Below are positions 3,467 to 30,867 of a stretch of DNA of 43,045 nucleotides, piece after piece. The position numbers were made by a program, and so were the translations under genes. Each line of letters starts with the position of its first letter. Position 1 is the first letter of the stretch. The DNA is from Pseudomonadota bacterium (GTDB lineage: Bacteria > Pseudomonadota > Gammaproteobacteria > Burkholderiales > SG8-39). The stretch spans positions 1-43,045 of the forward strand of contig JAFEDL010000082.1 of the NCBI GenBank assembly GCA_018241645.1. Direction: 5' to 3'. A model generated the notes under the pieces. That model was given only the letters and a program-made list of their open reading frames with translations. It had not been told where the DNA came from and made no database searches.

Positions 3467-6277
3467 ATGGAGATCAAACCGGAACGCCTGCTCGAAGTCG
3501 TCGCCGAGGTGACGAAGGAGGCCCGCCCGCACGTGGCGCCCCATGTGACGCTGGACAGCTCCCTGGAGCGCGAGCTCGGCCTCGACAGCCTCGCGCGCGT
3601 GGAGCTCGTGCTGCGCCTGGAGCAGGTGTTCGGCACCAGCCTGCCCGAGCAGGCCCTGGCCACGGGCGAGACCCCGCGCGACCTCCTGCGCTTCCTGCTG
3701 GCCGGCGCCGGGCACGCGCGCGAGGCGGCCGACAGCAGCGTGGCGAGCCTGGTGCAGTCCGAGGGCGTGCCCGCGCCCTCCGTTACCCAGGCGCGCACGC
3801 TGACCGAAGCCCTTGAGTACCACGTCGAGCGCCAGCCGGACCGGCTGACGGTGTTCATGTACGAGGACGGAAACGAGTATCCGCTCACCTTCCGGGCGCT
3901 GTGGGACGGCGCGCTCGGCTATGCGGCGCGGCTCACGCACGCGGGCCTGCAGCGCGGCCAGATGGTGGCGATCATGCTGCCCACCTGCAAGGAATACCTC
4001 TACTCGTTCTACGGCGTGCTGCTCGCGGGCGGCGTGCCGGTGCCGCTCTACCCGCCCGCGCGGCTCACCACGATCGAAGACCACATGACGCGCCACGTCG
4101 GGATCCTGAAGAGCGCGGGCCCGGTCATCATGATCACCGTGCCGGAGGCGAAGGCGCTGGCCTACCTCTTGCGCGCGCAGGTCGAATCACTGCAGCAGGT
4201 GCTGGTCCCGGCCGACCTCGAAAAATCCACCGGCGAGCGGTTCACGCCGGTGCACGGCAACCCCGGGGAGATCGGCTTCCTGCAGTACACCTCGGGCAGC
4301 ACCGGCAACCCGAAGGGCGTCGTGCTGTCGCACGCGAACCTGATGGCCAACGTGCGCGCGATGGGCGCGGCGGTGAGCGCCGGGCCGGAGGACGTGTTCG
4401 TGAGCTGGCTGCCGCTGTACCACGACCTCGGCCTGATCGGCGCCAACTTCGCCTCGCTGGTGCTCGGCTTCCCGACGGTGCTGATGTCGCCGCTTGCCTT
4501 CCTGTCGCGGCCCGCGAGCTGGATGCGCGCGATCCACCGCCATCGCGGCACGATGTCGGGCGGCCCGAACTTCGCCTTCGAGCTCTGCCTGCGCCGCATC
4601 TCGGACGAGGACATGGAAGGCATCGACCTGTCGTCGTGGCGATTCGCTTTCAACGCCGCCGAGCCGGTCAGCCCGGACACCATCATCGAGTTCGAGAAGC
4701 GCTTCGGGAAGTACGGGCTGCGCAAGAACTGCCTGTCGCCCTCCTACGGCCTGGCGGAATCCTCGGTGGGCGTGGCGATCACCGTGCCGGGCAGCCCCTG
4801 GCGCGCCGATCGCCTCGACCGCGACCGCTTCACGCGCACGGGCGAGGCCGTCGAGGCAAAGCCGGACGACCCCTCGCCGCTGATCGTGATCGGCTGCGGC
4901 ACGCCGATCCCCGGCCACGACATCCGCACGGTGGACGCCGCAGGGCTGGAACTCCCCGACCGGCAGGAGGGCCTGCTGCAGTTCCGCGGTCCCTCCTCCA
5001 CCTCCGGGTACTACCGCAACCCGGAGGCCACCAAGACCCTCTTCGACGGCGAATGGGTAAACACCGGCGACCGCGCGTACCTGTCGGAAGGCGTGCTGTT
5101 CCTGACCGGGCGCGAGAAGGACATCATCATCCGCGGCGGCCGCAACATCAGCCCCTACGAGCTCGAGCAGGCGGTGGGGGACCTCGCCGGCGTGCGGCGC
5201 GGCTGCGTCGCGGTGTTCGGCAGCAAGGACGCGACTACCGGCACCGAGCGCGTGGTGGTGCTCGCCGAGATGCGCGACAACGACGCCTCCCGCCACGACG
5301 ACCTGAAGCGGATGATCAACGAGATCGCGGTGAGCCTGCTCGGCGCGCCCGCGGACGACATCGTGCTAGCGCCGCCCGCCACCGTGCCGAAGACCTCGAG
5401 CGGCAAGATCCGGCGCGTCGCGGCGCGCGAGTTCTACGAGCGCGGGCCCTCGGCGGTGAAGCCCCAGGCCGTGTGGCTGCAGTTCGCTCGCCTGATGCTC
5501 TCGGGCGCCGCGCCACAGCTGCGCCGCGGCCTGCGCACGCTGGGCGGCGCGCTGTTCGCGCTGCGCGCCTACGCCGTGTTCGGCCTGCTGTTCCCGTTCG
5601 CGTTCCTCGCCGCGCTACTGGCCCCGGGCCGCACCTGCTGGAACGTGGGCAAGGCGGTGTCGAAGTGGTTCCTGGTGCTGTCGGGCATCCCGGTGGCGGT
5701 GCGCGGCCTGGAGCACCTCGAGCGGCAATCCCCGGTGGTGCTTGCGGTCAACCATACCAGCTACCTCGACGCGCTGGTCCTGCTCTCGCTGCTCGAGCAC
5801 CGCGGCTACGCGTTCGTGGCCAAGCGCGAGTTCCAGGACAATTTCCTGATGCGCGCCCTGCTCTCGGGGTTCGGCACCCAGTTCATCGAGCGCTTCGACG
5901 TGGCGAAAAGCGCCGAGCACGCCAATGAGCTGGGCGAGGCCGCCAAGCGCGGCATTTCGCTCATCGTGTTCCCGGAAGGCACGCTGACGCGCAACACCGG
6001 CCTGATGGATTTCCGCACCGGCGCGTTCCAGGCGGCGGCGCAGGCCGGCATCCCGGTGGTGCCGGTGGCATTGCGCGGCGTGCGCTCGGTGCTGCGCGAC
6101 GGCACCTGGTACCTGCGGCGCGGCGCGGTGTCGGTGACGATAGGCGCGCCGGTGACGGCCGAGGGCAGAGACTGGGCGGCGGCGATCAAGCTGCGCGATG
6201 CAGTGCGCGCCGCGATCCTCAGGTCCTGCGGCGAGCCGGACCTGGGCGCGCATGCAAGGAATGGACAGGGCCTTTGA
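3467..6277 (+). CDS. ACP - fatty acyl-AMP ligase - PlsC acyltransferase fusion
   Basis: 936 residues from ATG 3467 (GGAAGGA about 11 bases upstream). Domain 1, residues 1-85, is an acyl carrier protein with the phosphopantetheine serine in L-G-L-D-S (Ser41). Domain 2, about 105-670, is an adenylate-forming enzyme: YTSGSTGNPKG at 274-284, a YGLAESS motif, TGDRAYL and a SSGKIRR C-terminal lysine motif. It lacks an obvious CoA-ligase signature and resembles fatty acyl-AMP ligases. Domain 3, about 700-936, follows a hydrophobic stretch and is a PlsC-type acyltransferase with NHTSYLD (His763, Asp768) and FPEGT near 835. The inferred reaction is to activate a fatty acid as acyl-AMP, load it on the built-in ACP and pass it to a lysophospholipid or other acceptor. 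E. coli Aas couples the same chemistry in another domain order. Confidence 0.88.
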   Translation: MEIKPERLLEVVAEVTKEARPHVAPHVTLDSSLERELGLDSLARVELVLRLEQVFGTSLPEQALATGETPRDLLRFLLAGAGHAREAADSSVASLVQSEGVPAPSVTQARTLTEALEYHVERQPDRLTVFMYEDGNEYPLTFRALWDGALGYAARLTHAGLQRGQMVAIMLPTCKEYLYSFYGVLLAGGVPVPLYPPARLTTIEDHMTRHVGILKSAGPVIMITVPEAKALAYLLRAQVESLQQVLVPADLEKSTGERFTPVHGNPGEIGFLQYTSGSTGNPKGVVLSHANLMANVRAMGAAVSAGPEDVFVSWLPLYHDLGLIGANFASLVLGFPTVLMSPLAFLSRPASWMRAIHRHRGTMSGGPNFAFELCLRRISDEDMEGIDLSSWRFAFNAAEPVSPDTIIEFEKRFGKYGLRKNCLSPSYGLAESSVGVAITVPGSPWRADRLDRDRFTRTGEAVEAKPDDPSPLIVIGCGTPIPGHDIRTVDAAGLELPDRQEGLLQFRGPSSTSGYYRNPEATKTLFDGEWVNTGDRAYLSEGVLFLTGREKDIIIRGGRNISPYELEQAVGDLAGVRRGCVAVFGSKDATTGTERVVVLAEMRDNDASRHDDLKRMINEIAVSLLGAPADDIVLAPPATVPKTSSGKIRRVAAREFYERGPSAVKPQAVWLQFARLMLSGAAPQLRRGLRTLGGALFALRAYAVFGLLFPFAFLAALLAPGRTCWNVGKAVSKWFLVLSGIPVAVRGLEHLERQSPVVLAVNHTSYLDALVLLSLLEHRGYAFVAKREFQDNFLMRALLSGFGTQFIERFDVAKSAEHANELGEAAKRGISLIVFPEGTLTRNTGLMDFRTGAFQAAAQAGIPVVPVALRGVRSVLRDGTWYLRRGAVSVTIGAPVTAEGRDWAAAIKLRDAVRAAILRSCGEPDLGAHARNGQGL

Positions 6278-24631: not shown

Positions 24632-25570
24632 ATGAGCAACATGCATGAAGTGGCATTTCTGGATAAGGGATTGCGTTCGCCGTACGGCAGGAAATACAAG
24701 CAGTTGGACTATGAGTTCGATCCCGCCGGCGGGGTCCTGTGGGGACTGATGAACCCGAAGGGCACGCCCTGTTTCAACCTCGGGATGCTGAACGACATCC
24801 ACCACCACGACGAGACGCTGCGCGCCAACCGCGGGCAGATCGAGTGGGAGGGAAAGATACGCAACGTCGACTACTACGTCGCCGCGTCGCGCATACCCAA
24901 GGTGTTCGGGCTGGGCGGGGACCTCGCCCTGTTCCTGCTGCTCATCAAGGCGCGCGACCGCGAGGCGCTGGCCCACTACGCCAGGCTCTGCATCGACAAC
25001 GTCTATGCGCGCATCCGCAACTACGACTGCCCGACGCTCACCACGATCTCGCTGGTGCAGGGCGACGCGCTGGGCGGCGGATTCGAGACCGTGCTGTCCT
25101 CGGACGTGATCATCGCCGAGGAATCCGCGCACATGGGCCTGCCGGAAATCCTCTTCAACCTGTTCCCGGGCATGGGCGCCTACAGCCTGCTCGCGCGCCG
25201 CATCGGCATGCGCGCGGCCGAGGACCTGATCCTGTCGGGCAAGGTGCTGCCGGCGAGGAAGCTGCACGAGATGGGACTGGTGGACGTGATCGCCCCCGAC
25301 GGCAAGGGCGAAGCGGCGGTGAACGAGTGGATCGCCAAGCAGGCGCGCCGCAGGAACGGCATGCAGGGCATCCTGCGGGCCCGGCAGCACGTGTTCCCCG
25401 TCACCCGCGAGGAGCTCGACGGCATCGCCGACACCTGGGTGGACTGTGCGTTGCGCCTGGACGACCGCGACCTGCGCAAGATGGGCATGATCGTCGAGGC
25501 CCAGATGCGCCGCATGGAACAGGGCGACGTGAAGGACATCACCGTCGAGGCCCGCGCCGCGAACGAGTGA
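24632..25570 (+). CDS. rpfF: RpfF-like DSF (cis-2-unsaturated fatty acid) synthase
   Basis: 312 residues from ATG 24632, with GAAGGGAG about seven bases upstream. It is a crotonase-fold protein, but the details are of RpfF rather than ordinary enoyl-CoA hydratase. These are FGLGGDLALFLLLI, YARLCIDNVY, LVQGDALGGGFETVL, HMGLPEILFNLFPGMGAYSL and the C-terminal GILRARQHVFPVTREELDGI. Glu152 and Glu172 lie 20 residues apart, as do the catalytic Glu141 and Glu161 of Xanthomonas RpfF. That enzyme dehydrates 3-hydroxyacyl-ACP and releases the cis-2 fatty acid as a diffusible signal. About 20 extra N-terminal residues precede the family start. The receptor and regulator genes rpfC and rpfG lie 1.7 kb downstream on the other strand. 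Chain length of the signal cannot be predicted. Confidence 0.87.
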   Translation: MSNMHEVAFLDKGLRSPYGRKYKQLDYEFDPAGGVLWGLMNPKGTPCFNLGMLNDIHHHDETLRANRGQIEWEGKIRNVDYYVAASRIPKVFGLGGDLALFLLLIKARDREALAHYARLCIDNVYARIRNYDCPTLTTISLVQGDALGGGFETVLSSDVIIAEESAHMGLPEILFNLFPGMGAYSLLARRIGMRAAEDLILSGKVLPARKLHEMGLVDVIAPDGKGEAAVNEWIAKQARRRNGMQGILRARQHVFPVTREELDGIADTWVDCALRLDDRDLRKMGMIVEAQMRRMEQGDVKDITVEARAANE

Positions 25571-25588: not shown

Positions 25589-26263
25589 CTACGCGTCCGC
25601 CATGTTGGCGGCAAACCCGCCCGGGCCGAACATCTGCCCGAACTGGTGGAAATTGACACGCGTCGAATTGACGATCGCGGCCTGCGCTCCCGGGTCGGCG
25701 ATCGTCTTTACGAGCACGTTGAGCTTGGCCATATGATCCTGGTCCATCGAAGCATGCGAAGTGAGGAAGCGGAAGCCGCCGGAGTCCACCTCCCGGCCGA
25801 CGGCTTTCGCGATCGCGCCTGCGACCCGCCCGCCGTACACGGACGAGATCACCTCGAGCTGGTAGAGCATGCCGAGGACCGAGCAGGGATGCTGCCGTTC
25901 GGCGGCCCAGTAGTTGAATGCGATTACGCTCTGTACCGGCGCGCTCGGCGGGACGCTGCGCGCGGCGTCGACATCCCCGCCCATGGCGCGGATGTCGTCC
26001 ATCACCCACTCCTCGTGCCCCTTTTCCTCCTCGATGCGTTCGTAGAGCTCCATGCGCACGGTGCGGAAGGCGTCGTCGCAGCGCGAGGCGGCCGCCGCCA
26101 TGATCGGGCAGAAATGCCACACGATGTGGTACAGGTCGTGCAGGAACGCGCGGTACTCGGGCAGCGTGAGCCCGTGGTGGATCATCGAGTGGATCTTCGG
26201 CTCGGCTTCCAGTTCGCGGCGGCTGGCGTCGGTGGTTTCGATCAGCGTGATGAAGAATGACAT
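25589..26263 (-). CDS. Heme-oxygenase-like diiron oxidase (HDO) family protein
   Basis: 224 residues from ATG 26263, with AAGGGGAG about ten bases upstream. It is all-helical in character and resembles the 'iron-containing redox enzyme' (TenA/PqqC/UndA-like) group. Candidate metal ligands are Glu80 and His83 in EEEKGHEEW, Glu137 in YQLEVIS, and His170, Asp174 and His177 in TSHASMDQDH, a pattern typical of HDO proteins. Known relatives include UndA, which turns medium-chain fatty acids into terminal alkenes, and BesC and SznF, which oxidise amino acids. The gene is convergent with rpfF (18 bases apart) and divergent from the fatty acid hydroxylase. A fatty acid substrate is inferred from this setting only. 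Family call moderately strong. Confidence 0.78.
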   Translation of the reverse strand: MSFFITLIETTDASRRELEAEPKIHSMIHHGLTLPEYRAFLHDLYHIVWHFCPIMAAAASRCDDAFRTVRMELYERIEEEKGHEEWVMDDIRAMGGDVDAARSVPPSAPVQSVIAFNYWAAERQHPCSVLGMLYQLEVISSVYGGRVAGAIAKAVGREVDSGGFRFLTSHASMDQDHMAKLNVLVKTIADPGAQAAIVNSTRVNFHQFGQMFGPGGFAANMADA

Positions 26264-26326: not shown

Positions 26327-27244
26327 ATGACTCCCGTCAAACTCTACGTTTACGCCCTGCCGGTCATATTCCTGCTGATCGCAGCCGAGGCCGCCTTTTA
26401 CCGCACCGTCCTGCGCAAGGACTACGGCTGGATGGTCACGCTCTCCAACGTGGCCGTCGCCATGGGGCGCCTCGCCACCGACGCCCTGTTCGCCGCCATC
26501 GTCGCGGCCGCATACGTGGCCGCCTACCACGTGCGCCTGGCCGACATCCCCATGGACCGCTGGGAGAGCTGGGTGGCGCTGTTCTTCGCGGTGGAGTTCG
26601 CCTACTACTGGCTGCACCGGATGAGCCACGAAATCCGCTGGATGTGGGCGCAGCACAGCGTGCACCACTCCGCCCGCCAGATCACGCTCTCCGTCTCCTA
26701 CCGGCTCGGCTGGACCAACATCGTCGCCGGGCCGTGGCTGTTCCTGATCCCGGTGTGCTGGGTCGGCTTCGACCCGCTGGCCGTGGCGCTGATGTACGCC
26801 GCCAACCTCCTCTACCAGTTCCTGCTGCATACCGAGGCGGTCCCCAAGCTCGGCGTCCTCGAGCGGATCCTGAACACGCCTTCGCACCACCGCGTCCACC
26901 ACGCCGTGAACCCGCAGTACCTGGACCGCAACTACGGCGGCGTGCTGATCGTCTGGGACAAGATGTTCGGCACCTTCGCGGCCGAGGAGGACGACACGCC
27001 GCGCGAATACGGGCTGGTGCACCAGATCGACACGCTCAACCCGCTGAAGATCGCGTTTGCCGAGTGGCGGGCCCTGTTCCGCGACCTGCGCTCGGCGCGT
27101 TCGCTGCGCGAGGCGGCGGGGTACGCGTTCGGCAGGCCCGGCTGGTCCCCCGACGGGGACGGGAATACTTCCGCGGCGATCCGGCGGCGCGCGGCGCAGG
27201 CGCGCACCTCCCCGGTAGCCGCGCCGGGCGCTCTAAACAGCTGA
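26327..27244 (+). CDS. Sterol desaturase / fatty acid hydroxylase superfamily membrane protein
   Basis: 305 residues with membrane segments near 5-24, 38-68, 82-96 and 130-165. The diiron histidine clusters are intact: H-x3-H at His97/His101 (WLHRMSHE), H-x2-HH at His110/113/114 (AQHSVHHS), His168, and HHxxHH at 187-192 in SHHRVHH. A GGVLIVWDKMFGTF tail is typical. Members use O2 and two iron atoms to hydroxylate or desaturate lipids, fatty acids or sterols at the inner membrane. The gene starts 63 bases from the divergent HDO gene. Its last 12 bases overlap the end of the rpfC-like gene on the other strand, so convergent read-through could influence rpfC. Substrate unknown. Confidence 0.9.
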   Translation: MTPVKLYVYALPVIFLLIAAEAAFYRTVLRKDYGWMVTLSNVAVAMGRLATDALFAAIVAAAYVAAYHVRLADIPMDRWESWVALFFAVEFAYYWLHRMSHEIRWMWAQHSVHHSARQITLSVSYRLGWTNIVAGPWLFLIPVCWVGFDPLAVALMYAANLLYQFLLHTEAVPKLGVLERILNTPSHHRVHHAVNPQYLDRNYGGVLIVWDKMFGTFAAEEDDTPREYGLVHQIDTLNPLKIAFAEWRALFRDLRSARSLREAAGYAFGRPGWSPDGDGNTSAAIRRRAAQARTSPVAAPGALNS

Positions 27245-29761
27245 CCGGCGCTGGTCCTGCAGGTGGCGCTCCAGCGCCCCGCGCGCCGCGGTGAGTTCCT
27301 GCTCGAGCGACTTGACCAGCTGGGGCGACTGCAGGCGCAGCTCCGAATCCGACAGCTTGCCCTGGTCGTTGCAGATGCGGGTGAGCCGCTCCGCGCCCAT
27401 GCTGGCCGCCGAGCCCTTCATGGCGTGCAGGTAGTTGCGGAATTCGACAAAGTTGCGCGCGGCCACCGAGGACTGGACCTTCTGCATCAGCACCTCGTTG
27501 TCCTCGACGAAGACGTTGATCAGCCGCTCCAGGAACCCGGCCGAGCCGAGCGCCTCGAGCTGCGCGAGCGTCTCGGGGTTGACGACCTGCATCTGCGCGA
27601 AAGGCGTCGCCGCGGGCGCGCCCTGCGGCGCGTAGTTGCGCTCGCCCGCCGCGGCCGGCGCACCCACCCCGCTCGCGACGAGTTCCTGGATGCCCTCGAG
27701 CAGCCGCATCGCCTCGATCGGCTTGGGCAGGAACGCGTCCGCGCCGGCCTCCAGGCATTCGTTGCGCGCGTCCTGGGTCACGTCCGCCGACAGCACGATG
27801 ACCGGGATGCGTTCCAGCCCGCGCCCCATCAGGCGGATCATCTGCAGCGCCTCGACGCCGCCCATGCGCGTCATGTTGCGGTCGAGCAGCACGATGTCGT
27901 AGTGCGCCTTCTCCAGCGCCTCCAGCACCTCGTCGCCGTCTGAAACCAGCGTCACCGTGTGCCCGCCCCGCTCGAGGATCTTGCCGATCACCTCGCGGTT
28001 GGTCGGGTTGTCGTCGGCCGCGAGCACGCTGCACTTGCGCCCCCCGGCGCCGCGGCGCGCGTAGTCCTCCAGCCGGACGACGCCTTCGCGCACCTCGTCC
28101 CCGGCCGCGACCGAGTGGAGCACGTTGAACAGCTGGCGCTTGTCGAACGGCAGCTCGAGCACCGCGGCATAGCCCGCCGACAGCGCGGCGAAGCGCTGCA
28201 CCTGGTTTTCGCGCGGGACGGCGAGGATCGCGGGCGGCGCGGGATTTGGCACGGCGCGCGCGTAGCGCTGCGCGAGCTGCGCACCGGCCGTGCCGCTCGC
28301 GCCGTAGATGAGCGCGCTGTGATACGGCTTGGCCAGGCTGATTTCGGCGGCGAGGCGCTCCGCGCCCTCCTCGATGCCGGCCACCGCGACCGGCGCGGCG
28401 CCCCAGGAGGCGAGCGCCTCGGACAGGGGGCCGAGTTCCGCCGCGGGAAAGCCCACGAGGAGCACGCGCGCGTCCGCCAGCTCGCCGCTGCCGGTCTCCG
28501 CCTTTTCCGGCTGCTTGTCGAGCGCGACCTCGAACCAGAAGGTGCTCCCCAGGCCCACCGCGCTCTCCACCCCGATGCGCCCGCCCATCAGCTCGACGAG
28601 CTGGCGGGCGATGGTCGTGCCCAGGCCCGTGCCGCCGAACCGGCGCGTGGTCGACTGGTCGGCCTGCGCAAAGCTCTCGAAGATGCGCTTCTGCGCCTCA
28701 GGCGCGATGCCGATGCCGGTGTCGCGGATCGAGAACTTCAGGCGCACCGCCGGGCCCTCCTCGCCCTCGGCCGAAACGTGCAGCGTCACGCTGCCCTTCT
28801 CGGTGAACTTGACCGCGTTGCTGGCGAGGTTGATGAGGATCTGCCGCAGGTGGTGCGGGTCGCCCAGCAGCGCCGGCGGCACCTCGGGCATGATCGAGAC
28901 CACGAACTGGACGCCCTTGGCCGAGGCCTGCGCCGCGACGATCCGCGACGTGCTGTTCACCAGCGCGTGCAGGTCGAACGGGGTGCGCTCCAGCGTGAGC
29001 TTGCCGGCCTCGATCTTGGAGAAGTCGAGCACCTCCTCGACCAGCCCGAGCATCATCTGCGAAGAGCTGCGCAGCGTCTGCAGCATGTCCGCCTGCTCGC
29101 GCGAGAGCTGCGTGTCGCGCAGCAGGTCCGCCATGCCGATGATCGCGTTCAGCGGGGTGCGCATCTCGTGGCTCACGACCGAGATGAAGCGGCGCTTGGC
29201 CTGGTTGGCCGCCTCGGCGCGGGACAGCGCGTCGAACATGCGGTTGACCAGCGACAGCACGTACAGGCTCAGCACCAGCAGGCCGAGCAGCAGGCCGGCG
29301 CCCTCGTCCAGGTGGGCGCGCCAGTAAGGGCTGGTGGCGAGCACCGTCGAGAATCCCGCCACGCTCAGGCCCAGCGACAGCAGCAGGTAGCGCGGGCCGA
29401 ACCGGAAGCCGTTGGCGAGCGTCACCCACACGTACACGAGGTAGAGCGCGAGCGCCCGCTCCTCGAAATACCACATCGTCCAGGTGACCGTGCCGAAGTC
29501 CGCCACCAGCGTGATGAACCGGCGCAGGTGCGACACGGAACTGGACAGCAGCGTCCAGGCGAGGATCCCCGCCGACACGGCGAAGTACGAGAAGAACACC
29601 TTCACCTCGGGCGACAGCGCCCCGCCTTCCTCGAAGTCGAGGCCCTTGAGCATGTACAGGCCGAGCACCATCGCGAGCACGATGCGCACCAGCGCCTGCT
29701 CGTGTTCGGTGTCGGGGCGCGCCGCGAGCCGGGTGCGCAGCGCCTTGATGAATTCCGGCAT
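27233..29761 (-). CDS. rpfC: RpfC-like hybrid sensor histidine kinase (with extra receiver-like domain)
   Basis: 842 residues from ATG 29761, five bases after the rpfG stop. The N-terminus ALRTRLAARPDTEHEQALVRI resembles the DSF-sensing end of RpfC, followed by about five membrane helices to residue 173. HisKA has His198 in SVVSHEMRTPLNAI; as I recall, Xanthomonas RpfC also uses His198. HATPase motifs are N-box NLASNAVKFT, DTGIG (347-351) and GGTGLG. Residues 430-555 look like a degenerate receiver without a clear phospho-Asp. A true receiver has Asp627 in VLLDRNM and Lys680. The C-terminal Hpt domain has His779 in LHAMKGSAASMG. The extra domain makes it about 115 residues longer than Xanthomonas RpfC. 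It should sense the rpfF product and pass phosphate to RpfG. Confidence 0.87.
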   Translation of the reverse strand: MPEFIKALRTRLAARPDTEHEQALVRIVLAMVLGLYMLKGLDFEEGGALSPEVKVFFSYFAVSAGILAWTLLSSSVSHLRRFITLVADFGTVTWTMWYFEERALALYLVYVWVTLANGFRFGPRYLLLSLGLSVAGFSTVLATSPYWRAHLDEGAGLLLGLLVLSLYVLSLVNRMFDALSRAEAANQAKRRFISVVSHEMRTPLNAIIGMADLLRDTQLSREQADMLQTLRSSSQMMLGLVEEVLDFSKIEAGKLTLERTPFDLHALVNSTSRIVAAQASAKGVQFVVSIMPEVPPALLGDPHHLRQILINLASNAVKFTEKGSVTLHVSAEGEEGPAVRLKFSIRDTGIGIAPEAQKRIFESFAQADQSTTRRFGGTGLGTTIARQLVELMGGRIGVESAVGLGSTFWFEVALDKQPEKAETGSGELADARVLLVGFPAAELGPLSEALASWGAAPVAVAGIEEGAERLAAEISLAKPYHSALIYGASGTAGAQLAQRYARAVPNPAPPAILAVPRENQVQRFAALSAGYAAVLELPFDKRQLFNVLHSVAAGDEVREGVVRLEDYARRGAGGRKCSVLAADDNPTNREVIGKILERGGHTVTLVSDGDEVLEALEKAHYDIVLLDRNMTRMGGVEALQMIRLMGRGLERIPVIVLSADVTQDARNECLEAGADAFLPKPIEAMRLLEGIQELVASGVGAPAAAGERNYAPQGAPAATPFAQMQVVNPETLAQLEALGSAGFLERLINVFVEDNEVLMQKVQSSVAARNFVEFRNYLHAMKGSAASMGAERLTRICNDQGKLSDSELRLQSPQLVKSLEQELTAARGALERHLQDQRRSAV

Positions 29762-29766
29762 GGGGC

Positions 29767-30867
29767 TCAGGGCACCGCGTCCTGGGCGGCGACCTGGTCG
29801 CCGAGTTCCTGCTGGATGCGCGCGACCTCGTTGGCCACGCCGAGGAAGGCGTCGACCATGTGCGGGTCGAAGTGCCGCCCGCGCTGGGCGCGCAGGTACT
29901 CGAAGGCCTCCTCCACCGGCCAGGCCTTCTTGTAGGGCCGCACCGCGGTCAGCGCATCGTAGACGTCGGCGACAGCGACCACGCGCGCGCAGAGCGGGAT
30001 GTGGTCCCCGACCAGGCCGTTCGGGTAACCCGAGCCGTCGTACTTCTCGTGGTGGCCGAGCGCGATCAGCGCGCCCATGCGCACGTACTTGGAGGCGCTG
30101 CCCTTGAGGATCTCGTGGCCGATCACCGGGTGGCGGCGCATGATCTTGAGCTCGGACTCGTCCAGCCGGCCGGGTTTCAGCAGGATCCCGTCGGGGATCC
30201 CGATCTTGCCGATGTCGTGCAGCGGCGCGGCAAGCTCGACCGTCTCGGCCTCCTCGTGCGACAGCCCGATCGTGTCGGCGATCAGCCGGGAGTACCGCGC
30301 CATGCGGATCAGGTGGTTGCCGGTCTCCTCGTCGCGGAATTCGCCCGCCCGCGCGAGGCGCAGCAGCGTCTCCTTTTCGCGCTCGCGGATTTCCTGGGTG
30401 GCGTCCTCGACCATTCCCTCCAGCAGGCGCTTCCGGTCCTCCAGCGCCAGCTGCTGGCGGCGCAGCGTGATCAGGTTCCTGCAGCGCGCAAGGCACTCGC
30501 GCGCGTCGATCGGCTTGATCAGGAAGTCGGTGATGCCCGCGTCGAGCGCCGCGTAGCGGATCTTGCGGTCGTCGTGCACGGTCACCATGACCATGGGCAC
30601 GTGCTCGTAGCCGGGCAGCGCGCGCAGGCGCTTCACGAACTCGATCCCGTCCATGTCGGGCATCGAATAGTCGACCAGCACCAGGTCGGCCACGTGCTTG
30701 GTCGCCCACACGACGGCGTCCACGGGCCGGGCGAACGGCTGCACCACGACGCGGTCGTCCAGCCCGCGCACCACCTGCTCCAGGATGGCGCGGCCCGTCG
30801 ACTGGTCGTCAACTACTACGATGGTGTTCTTCATCGCCGGCAGAATGTGGACTTGGGCGGTGCCCAT
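29767..30867 (-). CDS. rpfG: RpfG-like response regulator: receiver plus HD-GYP c-di-GMP phosphodiesterase
   Basis: 366 residues from ATG 30867, preferred because GAGGGGGG lies about nine bases upstream; ATG 30834 is an alternative giving MKNTIVVVDDQ. The receiver has an acidic pocket VVVDDQ, phospho-acceptor Asp66 in LVDYSMPDMDG and the conserved Lys in FLIKPID. A helical linker (about 135-170) leads to the HD-GYP domain: PLHDIGKIGIPD (His217, Asp218), HHEKYDGSGYP with the intact G-Y-P at 280-282, and DVYDALTAVRPYK. HD-GYP proteins of this type hydrolyse c-di-GMP. In Xanthomonas RpfG takes the signal from RpfC. Here it is first in a two-gene unit with the kinase, and an inverted repeat lies upstream (30895-30928). 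Confidence 0.9.
   Translation of the reverse strand: MGTAQVHILPAMKNTIVVVDDQSTGRAILEQVVRGLDDRVVVQPFARPVDAVVWATKHVADLVLVDYSMPDMDGIEFVKRLRALPGYEHVPMVMVTVHDDRKIRYAALDAGITDFLIKPIDARECLARCRNLITLRRQQLALEDRKRLLEGMVEDATQEIREREKETLLRLARAGEFRDEETGNHLIRMARYSRLIADTIGLSHEEAETVELAAPLHDIGKIGIPDGILLKPGRLDESELKIMRRHPVIGHEILKGSASKYVRMGALIALGHHEKYDGSGYPNGLVGDHIPLCARVVAVADVYDALTAVRPYKKAWPVEEAFEYLRAQRGRHFDPHMVDAFLGVANEVARIQQELGDQVAAQDAVP

Follow-up and report, generated by a model that had tools for sequence, protein, structure and literature searches.

The rpf neighbourhood of the window

The DNA analysed here (hereafter the window) is a stretch of 43,045 nucleotides from a Pseudomonadota bacterium (GTDB lineage Gammaproteobacteria; Burkholderiales; SG8-39; assembly GCA_018241645.1, contig JAFEDL010000082.1). 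The gene under study is predicted, from its sequence and a structural model, to encode a soluble haem-oxygenase-like dimetal oxidase (HDO). It lies among homologues of rpf genes:

24632-25570, plus strand: rpfF homologue of the crotonase family (PRK08788), converging on the HDO gene
25589-26263, minus strand: HDO gene, 224 aa, ATG start, clean ORF
26327-27244, plus strand: FA_hydroxylase-family membrane protein, 305 aa, with the His motifs HRMSH, HSVHH and HHRVH
27233-29761, minus strand: rpfC-like membrane hybrid histidine kinase with HisKA, HATPase, receiver and Hpt domains
29767-30867, minus strand: rpfG-like response regulator with an HD domain, of HD-GYP type by family resemblance

The start of the rpfC-like gene (29761) was read from the ORF listing, and the domain search covered 27233-29650. 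The FA_hydroxylase-family gene is divergent from the HDO gene, with 63 bp between them, and constitutes an optional insert between rpfC and HDO. A scan for promoters and terminators returned no informative site.

An earlier note on this sequence described the HDO gene as convergent with rpfF and 18 bases away from it, and this is confirmed: rpfF ends at 25570, and 18 bases separate the two stops. The same note called the neighbour a DSF synthase, a claim that stands in part. The rpfF product scored over the NCBIfam cut-off for PRK08788 and keeps both GGGFE (residues 148-152) and GLPE (residues 169-172), the motifs that hold the two catalytic glutamates of RpfF. Against the curated RpfF equivalog NF053515, however, it reached 210.8, below the cut-off of 550. 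Because this cut-off is missed, we use "DSF synthase" and "DSF-type" as putative labels based on homology and gene order.

Predicted fold and metal site of the HDO

In Pfam, the HDO matched Haem_oxygenas_2 (PF14518) with an E value of 1.3e-20 and 74.4 bits (cut-off 28.9), and it is the sole PF14518 match in the assembly that contains the window (180 contigs, completeness about 91%). TENA_THI-4 (TenA/THI-4/PqqC, PF03070) gave 18.3 bits, below its gathering score of 22. The CADD/pABA synthase model TIGR04305 scored 18.9, below its cut-off of 200, and PADLOC returned a weak match to HEC-02B (E 0.0027).

The AlphaFold2 model, built from 20 aligned sequences, is an all-helical bundle (pLDDT 92.2, pTM 0.88). 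Comparison by Foldseek and VIA-align showed it to have the seven-helix haem-oxygenase fold, the nearest solved structures being 3DDE (Z 25.4), CADD (Z ~23), HrmI (Z 20.8) and UndA (Z 20.1). Haem oxygenases scored level with HrmI and UndA, so the fold alone picks no function for the HDO.

The motifs EEEKGH (residues 78-83) and HASMDQDH (residues 170-177) were found where the earlier note had placed them and supply predicted metal ligands. In a profile search, the six residues assigned as ligands in UndA, in part from the motif, aligned column for column with E80, H83, E137, H170, D174 and H177 of the HDO. These residues make up a complete predicted 3H/3C set as defined for HDOs (PMC13108848), and together with the predicted fold they uphold the HDO assignment. 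Across 83 homologues, 28 of them rpf-linked and 55 not, the columns E, H, E, H, D, H are kept, the single exception being one with E in place of D174. D43 was also considered as a first-helix ligand and was dropped, since the sister clade has Q at this position. We infer all four of the following for the HDO: metal binding, substrate, reaction and effect on signalling.

Relationship to known HDOs

The best match of the HDO in both sequence and structure is 3DDE (Sden_3740 of Shewanella denitrificans), an HDO-fold protein of unknown function (profile E 1.7e-23). Both proteins carry E, H, E, H, D, H in the six ligand columns, and their identity is about 19-20%. The likeness to CADD (CT610), a self-sacrificing pABA synthase, is one of fold. 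The residues that CADD sacrifices are Tyr27 and Lys152 (PMC11965152); by our reading of the profile alignment they correspond to K23 and V147 of the HDO, and given these two residues, self-sacrificing chemistry appears unlikely.

The fatty acid decarboxylase UndA resembles the HDO in its full 3H/3C set, its fold and its fatty acid context. The kinship with UndA proposed in the earlier note thus stands as far as ligands and fold align, but a specific tie is not supported: at 17% identity UndA is not a near relative, and its Z score falls behind those of 3DDE and CADD. In a maximum-likelihood tree, UndA, CADD, MboA and 3DDE all sit on saturated branches. MboA, an HDO that acts as a desaturase/acetylenase, gave a weak profile match (E 1e-5) and provides a precedent for HDO-catalysed desaturation (PMC13185094). 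It differs in acting on a peptide together with MboB, its redox partner, and no gene for a partner of this kind was noticed beside the HDO of the window.

Linkage of the HDO to rpfF across genomes

Among 98 genomes of the family, 25 encode the HDO, every one in an rpf locus, and 48 encode an rpfF homologue (Fisher p 3e-7 for co-occurrence, by a test that ignores phylogeny). An rpfF above threshold is present in 23 of the 25; G126 has part of an rpfF where its contig ends, whereas the contig of G032 stops inside the HDO gene, which adjoins rpfC. When other families and GTDB loci were added, rpfF adjoined the HDO gene in 33 of 34 genomes, that is, in every readable member, in a sample that includes many MAGs and related genomes that are not independent. 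HDO relatives with at least 44% identity are all rpfF-linked, and none of the homologues with 37% identity or less lies within 1.5 kb of rpfF in the 55 loci checked. The rpf-linked HDOs form a well-supported clade of their own, one side of a branch of the maximum-likelihood tree with a support of 97/83.

Most often, rpfG-rpfC-HDO and rpfF converge. The Noviherbaspirillum loci L043, L045 and L046 have rpfC, HDO and rpfF one after another on one strand; in an alphaproteobacterium (L049), HDO follows rpfF collinearly while rpfC and rpfG are divergent; and in G354, HDO precedes rpfF, its stop overlapping the rpfF start by a 4-nt ATGA. Since HDO and rpfF are collinear in these genomes, the earlier suggestion that antisense transcription links the two genes is weakened. 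The linkage survives several gene arrangements and is therefore more than inherited gene order, and ligand conservation together with clade-wide rpfF linkage makes the observation more than chance. The association of the HDO with the DSF synthase homologue is real and apparently selected for. Identities of HDO and RpfF also co-vary (Pearson 0.93 over 33 loci), which species history alone could produce.

The Xanthomonas locus, where an rpfG-rpfC operon is likewise convergent with rpfF (PMC4504480), differs in having rpfH in the operon and rpfB adjoining rpfF, and no HDO is described there. By eye, a thiolase-looking ORF follows rpfF-HDO on the same strand in the alphaproteobacterium (L049, 8001-9925).

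A cassette position between rpfC and rpfF

The slot between rpfC and rpfF is a cassette position at which the HDO is exchanged with other acyl enzymes. It holds the HDO alone in some relatives, an FA_hydroxylase gene plus HDO in the window, L032, L033, L083 and L108, and a hydrolase, FA_hydroxylase and HDO in L008. Elsewhere it holds an alpha/beta hydrolase alone (L088, L089, L098), a beta-ketoacyl(-ACP) synthase alone in place of the HDO (L100, 4875-6143; L101, 8036-9301) or nothing recognisable (L090, L091, L093-L097, L099). L031, whose HDO is 93% identical to that of the window, has no FA_hydroxylase gene, showing that this gene comes and goes.

Several loci show further variation. The alpha/beta hydrolase replacing the HDO spans 2414-3325 in L066 and 2427-3338 in L070 (both Hydrolase_4) and 5469-6338 in L098, and L092 has a homologue on the opposite side of rpfF. 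L034 (326-2989) carries tandem HDO copies, the second apparently frameshifted, as well as an FA_desaturase-family ORF (1778-2989) directly 3' of rpfF on the same strand.

Proposed function of the HDO

The presence of the HDO beside genes for making and sensing a fatty acid signal between cells, in every readable related genome, suggests that it chemically alters fatty acids in DSF signalling. The carboxylate of the substrate is a ligand of Fe1 in UndA, AetD, HrmI, PolF and MboA (PMC13185094), and RpfF sets free acids loose, saturated by-products included (PMC4504480); action of the HDO on these free acids is the simplest reading. We propose, with about even confidence, that the HDO serves a DSF-type cluster as a dedicated accessory enzyme, oxidising the acids near the carboxyl end and thereby tailoring the signal. 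RpfF would release a free acyl acid, either a cis-2-enoic acid or a saturated or 3-hydroxy by-product, whose carboxylate would dock on one iron of the dimetal site; the O2-activated cluster would then oxidise the chain near its carboxyl end, and the product would be a tailored signal with an extra desaturation or oxidation.

Several points count against such tailoring. The RpfF homologue misses its equivalog cut-off, which leaves the DSF identity of the signal putative; the HDO is dispensable for the core system, since roughly half of the family genomes with rpfF do without it; known HDOs mostly take amino acids or peptides; and the HDO gene mostly lies downstream of the sensor genes and not with rpfF, which also fits turnover of the signal.

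Such turnover is the first alternative: co-expressed with the sensor genes to provide feedback, the HDO would decarboxylate DSF-type acids oxidatively, as UndA does, or otherwise destroy them. The 3H/3C site common to HDO and UndA and the usual position downstream of rpfC favour this quenching, as does a weak resemblance of the slot alpha/beta hydrolase to a quorum-quenching lactonase model, which at E 3e-4 is far below the cut-off. However, C3-H is vinylic in a cis-2-enoic acid and would be poorly suited to abstraction of the UndA type, and the slot or its flank also carries a desaturase, a beta-ketoacyl synthase and hydroxylase-family proteins, which point to building or tailoring, as does the overlap of HDO and rpfF in G354. 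These neighbours and the overlap fit tailoring at least as well as they fit quenching or alkene production. We regard signal turnover as unlikely, and prefer tailoring over destruction because chain-building and chain-modifying enzymes keep the HDO company.

Clearance of by-products seems very unlikely. The HDO would here remove saturated or 3-hydroxy acids freed by the thioesterase activity of RpfF, a role that in Xanthomonas falls to the acyl-CoA ligase RpfB, which counteracts the free saturated acids that RpfF makes from any acyl-ACP (PMC4504480). Such acids do belong to the substrate class of UndA (PMC13108848), but oxidising them would waste carbon, and many rpfF genomes of the family do without an HDO. 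Least probable of all is that the HDO leaves the signal alone and serves in redox or O2-linked stress or as a sensor-associated protein: the HDO-domain protein DtpC of Acinetobacter does guard against desiccation-induced oxidative stress, needing its predicted ligands (PMC13232832), but the strict rpfF linkage of the HDO, kept in several gene arrangements, and the acyl enzymes found with it in the slot argue against such a role here.

Signal tailoring, our preferred reading, also has a more specific form, which is speculative and quite unlikely as it stands. By attacking the weak allylic C4-H of a cis-2-enoic acid, the HDO might make a new signal class, for example a 2,4-diene, or a butenolide formed by ring closure of a 4-hydroxy acid; the slot between rpfC and rpfF would then be a cassette that diversifies DSF-type signals.

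HDOs and rpf clusters are each known, and we found no description of the combination in the open-access papers searched. These gave no relevant paper joining rpfF with a heme oxygenase-like, diiron, TenA or iron-containing redox enzyme, and no relevant paper for "iron-containing redox enzyme" with quorum sensing. Earlier work attributes the DSF-family signal pattern to the acyl substrates supplied to RpfF (PMC4504480). If tailoring is correct, a DSF-type signal would also be edited after or around RpfF by a dedicated O2-dependent enzyme, one whose place a hydrolase, a hydroxylase-family protein or a beta-ketoacyl synthase can take. A fatty acid-signal role would likewise be added to the HDO superfamily, whose functionally validated members number only about a dozen (PMC13108848).

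A sister HDO subfamily in a different operon

In the sister loci, an AMP ligase gene and an SDR gene both adjoin the HDO gene in 53 of 55 cases, and a T_hemolysin-like gene is also there in all nine of the wider stretches fetched. No paper on a T_hemolysin-ligase-HDO operon was found among the open-access papers searched. The order T_hemolysin (PF12261)-AMP ligase-HDO-SDR recurs across Pseudomonadota (L111-L159, L020-L024, L030, L163-L171), and in L167 the ligase and HDO are fused in one ORF of 672 aa (3822-5840).
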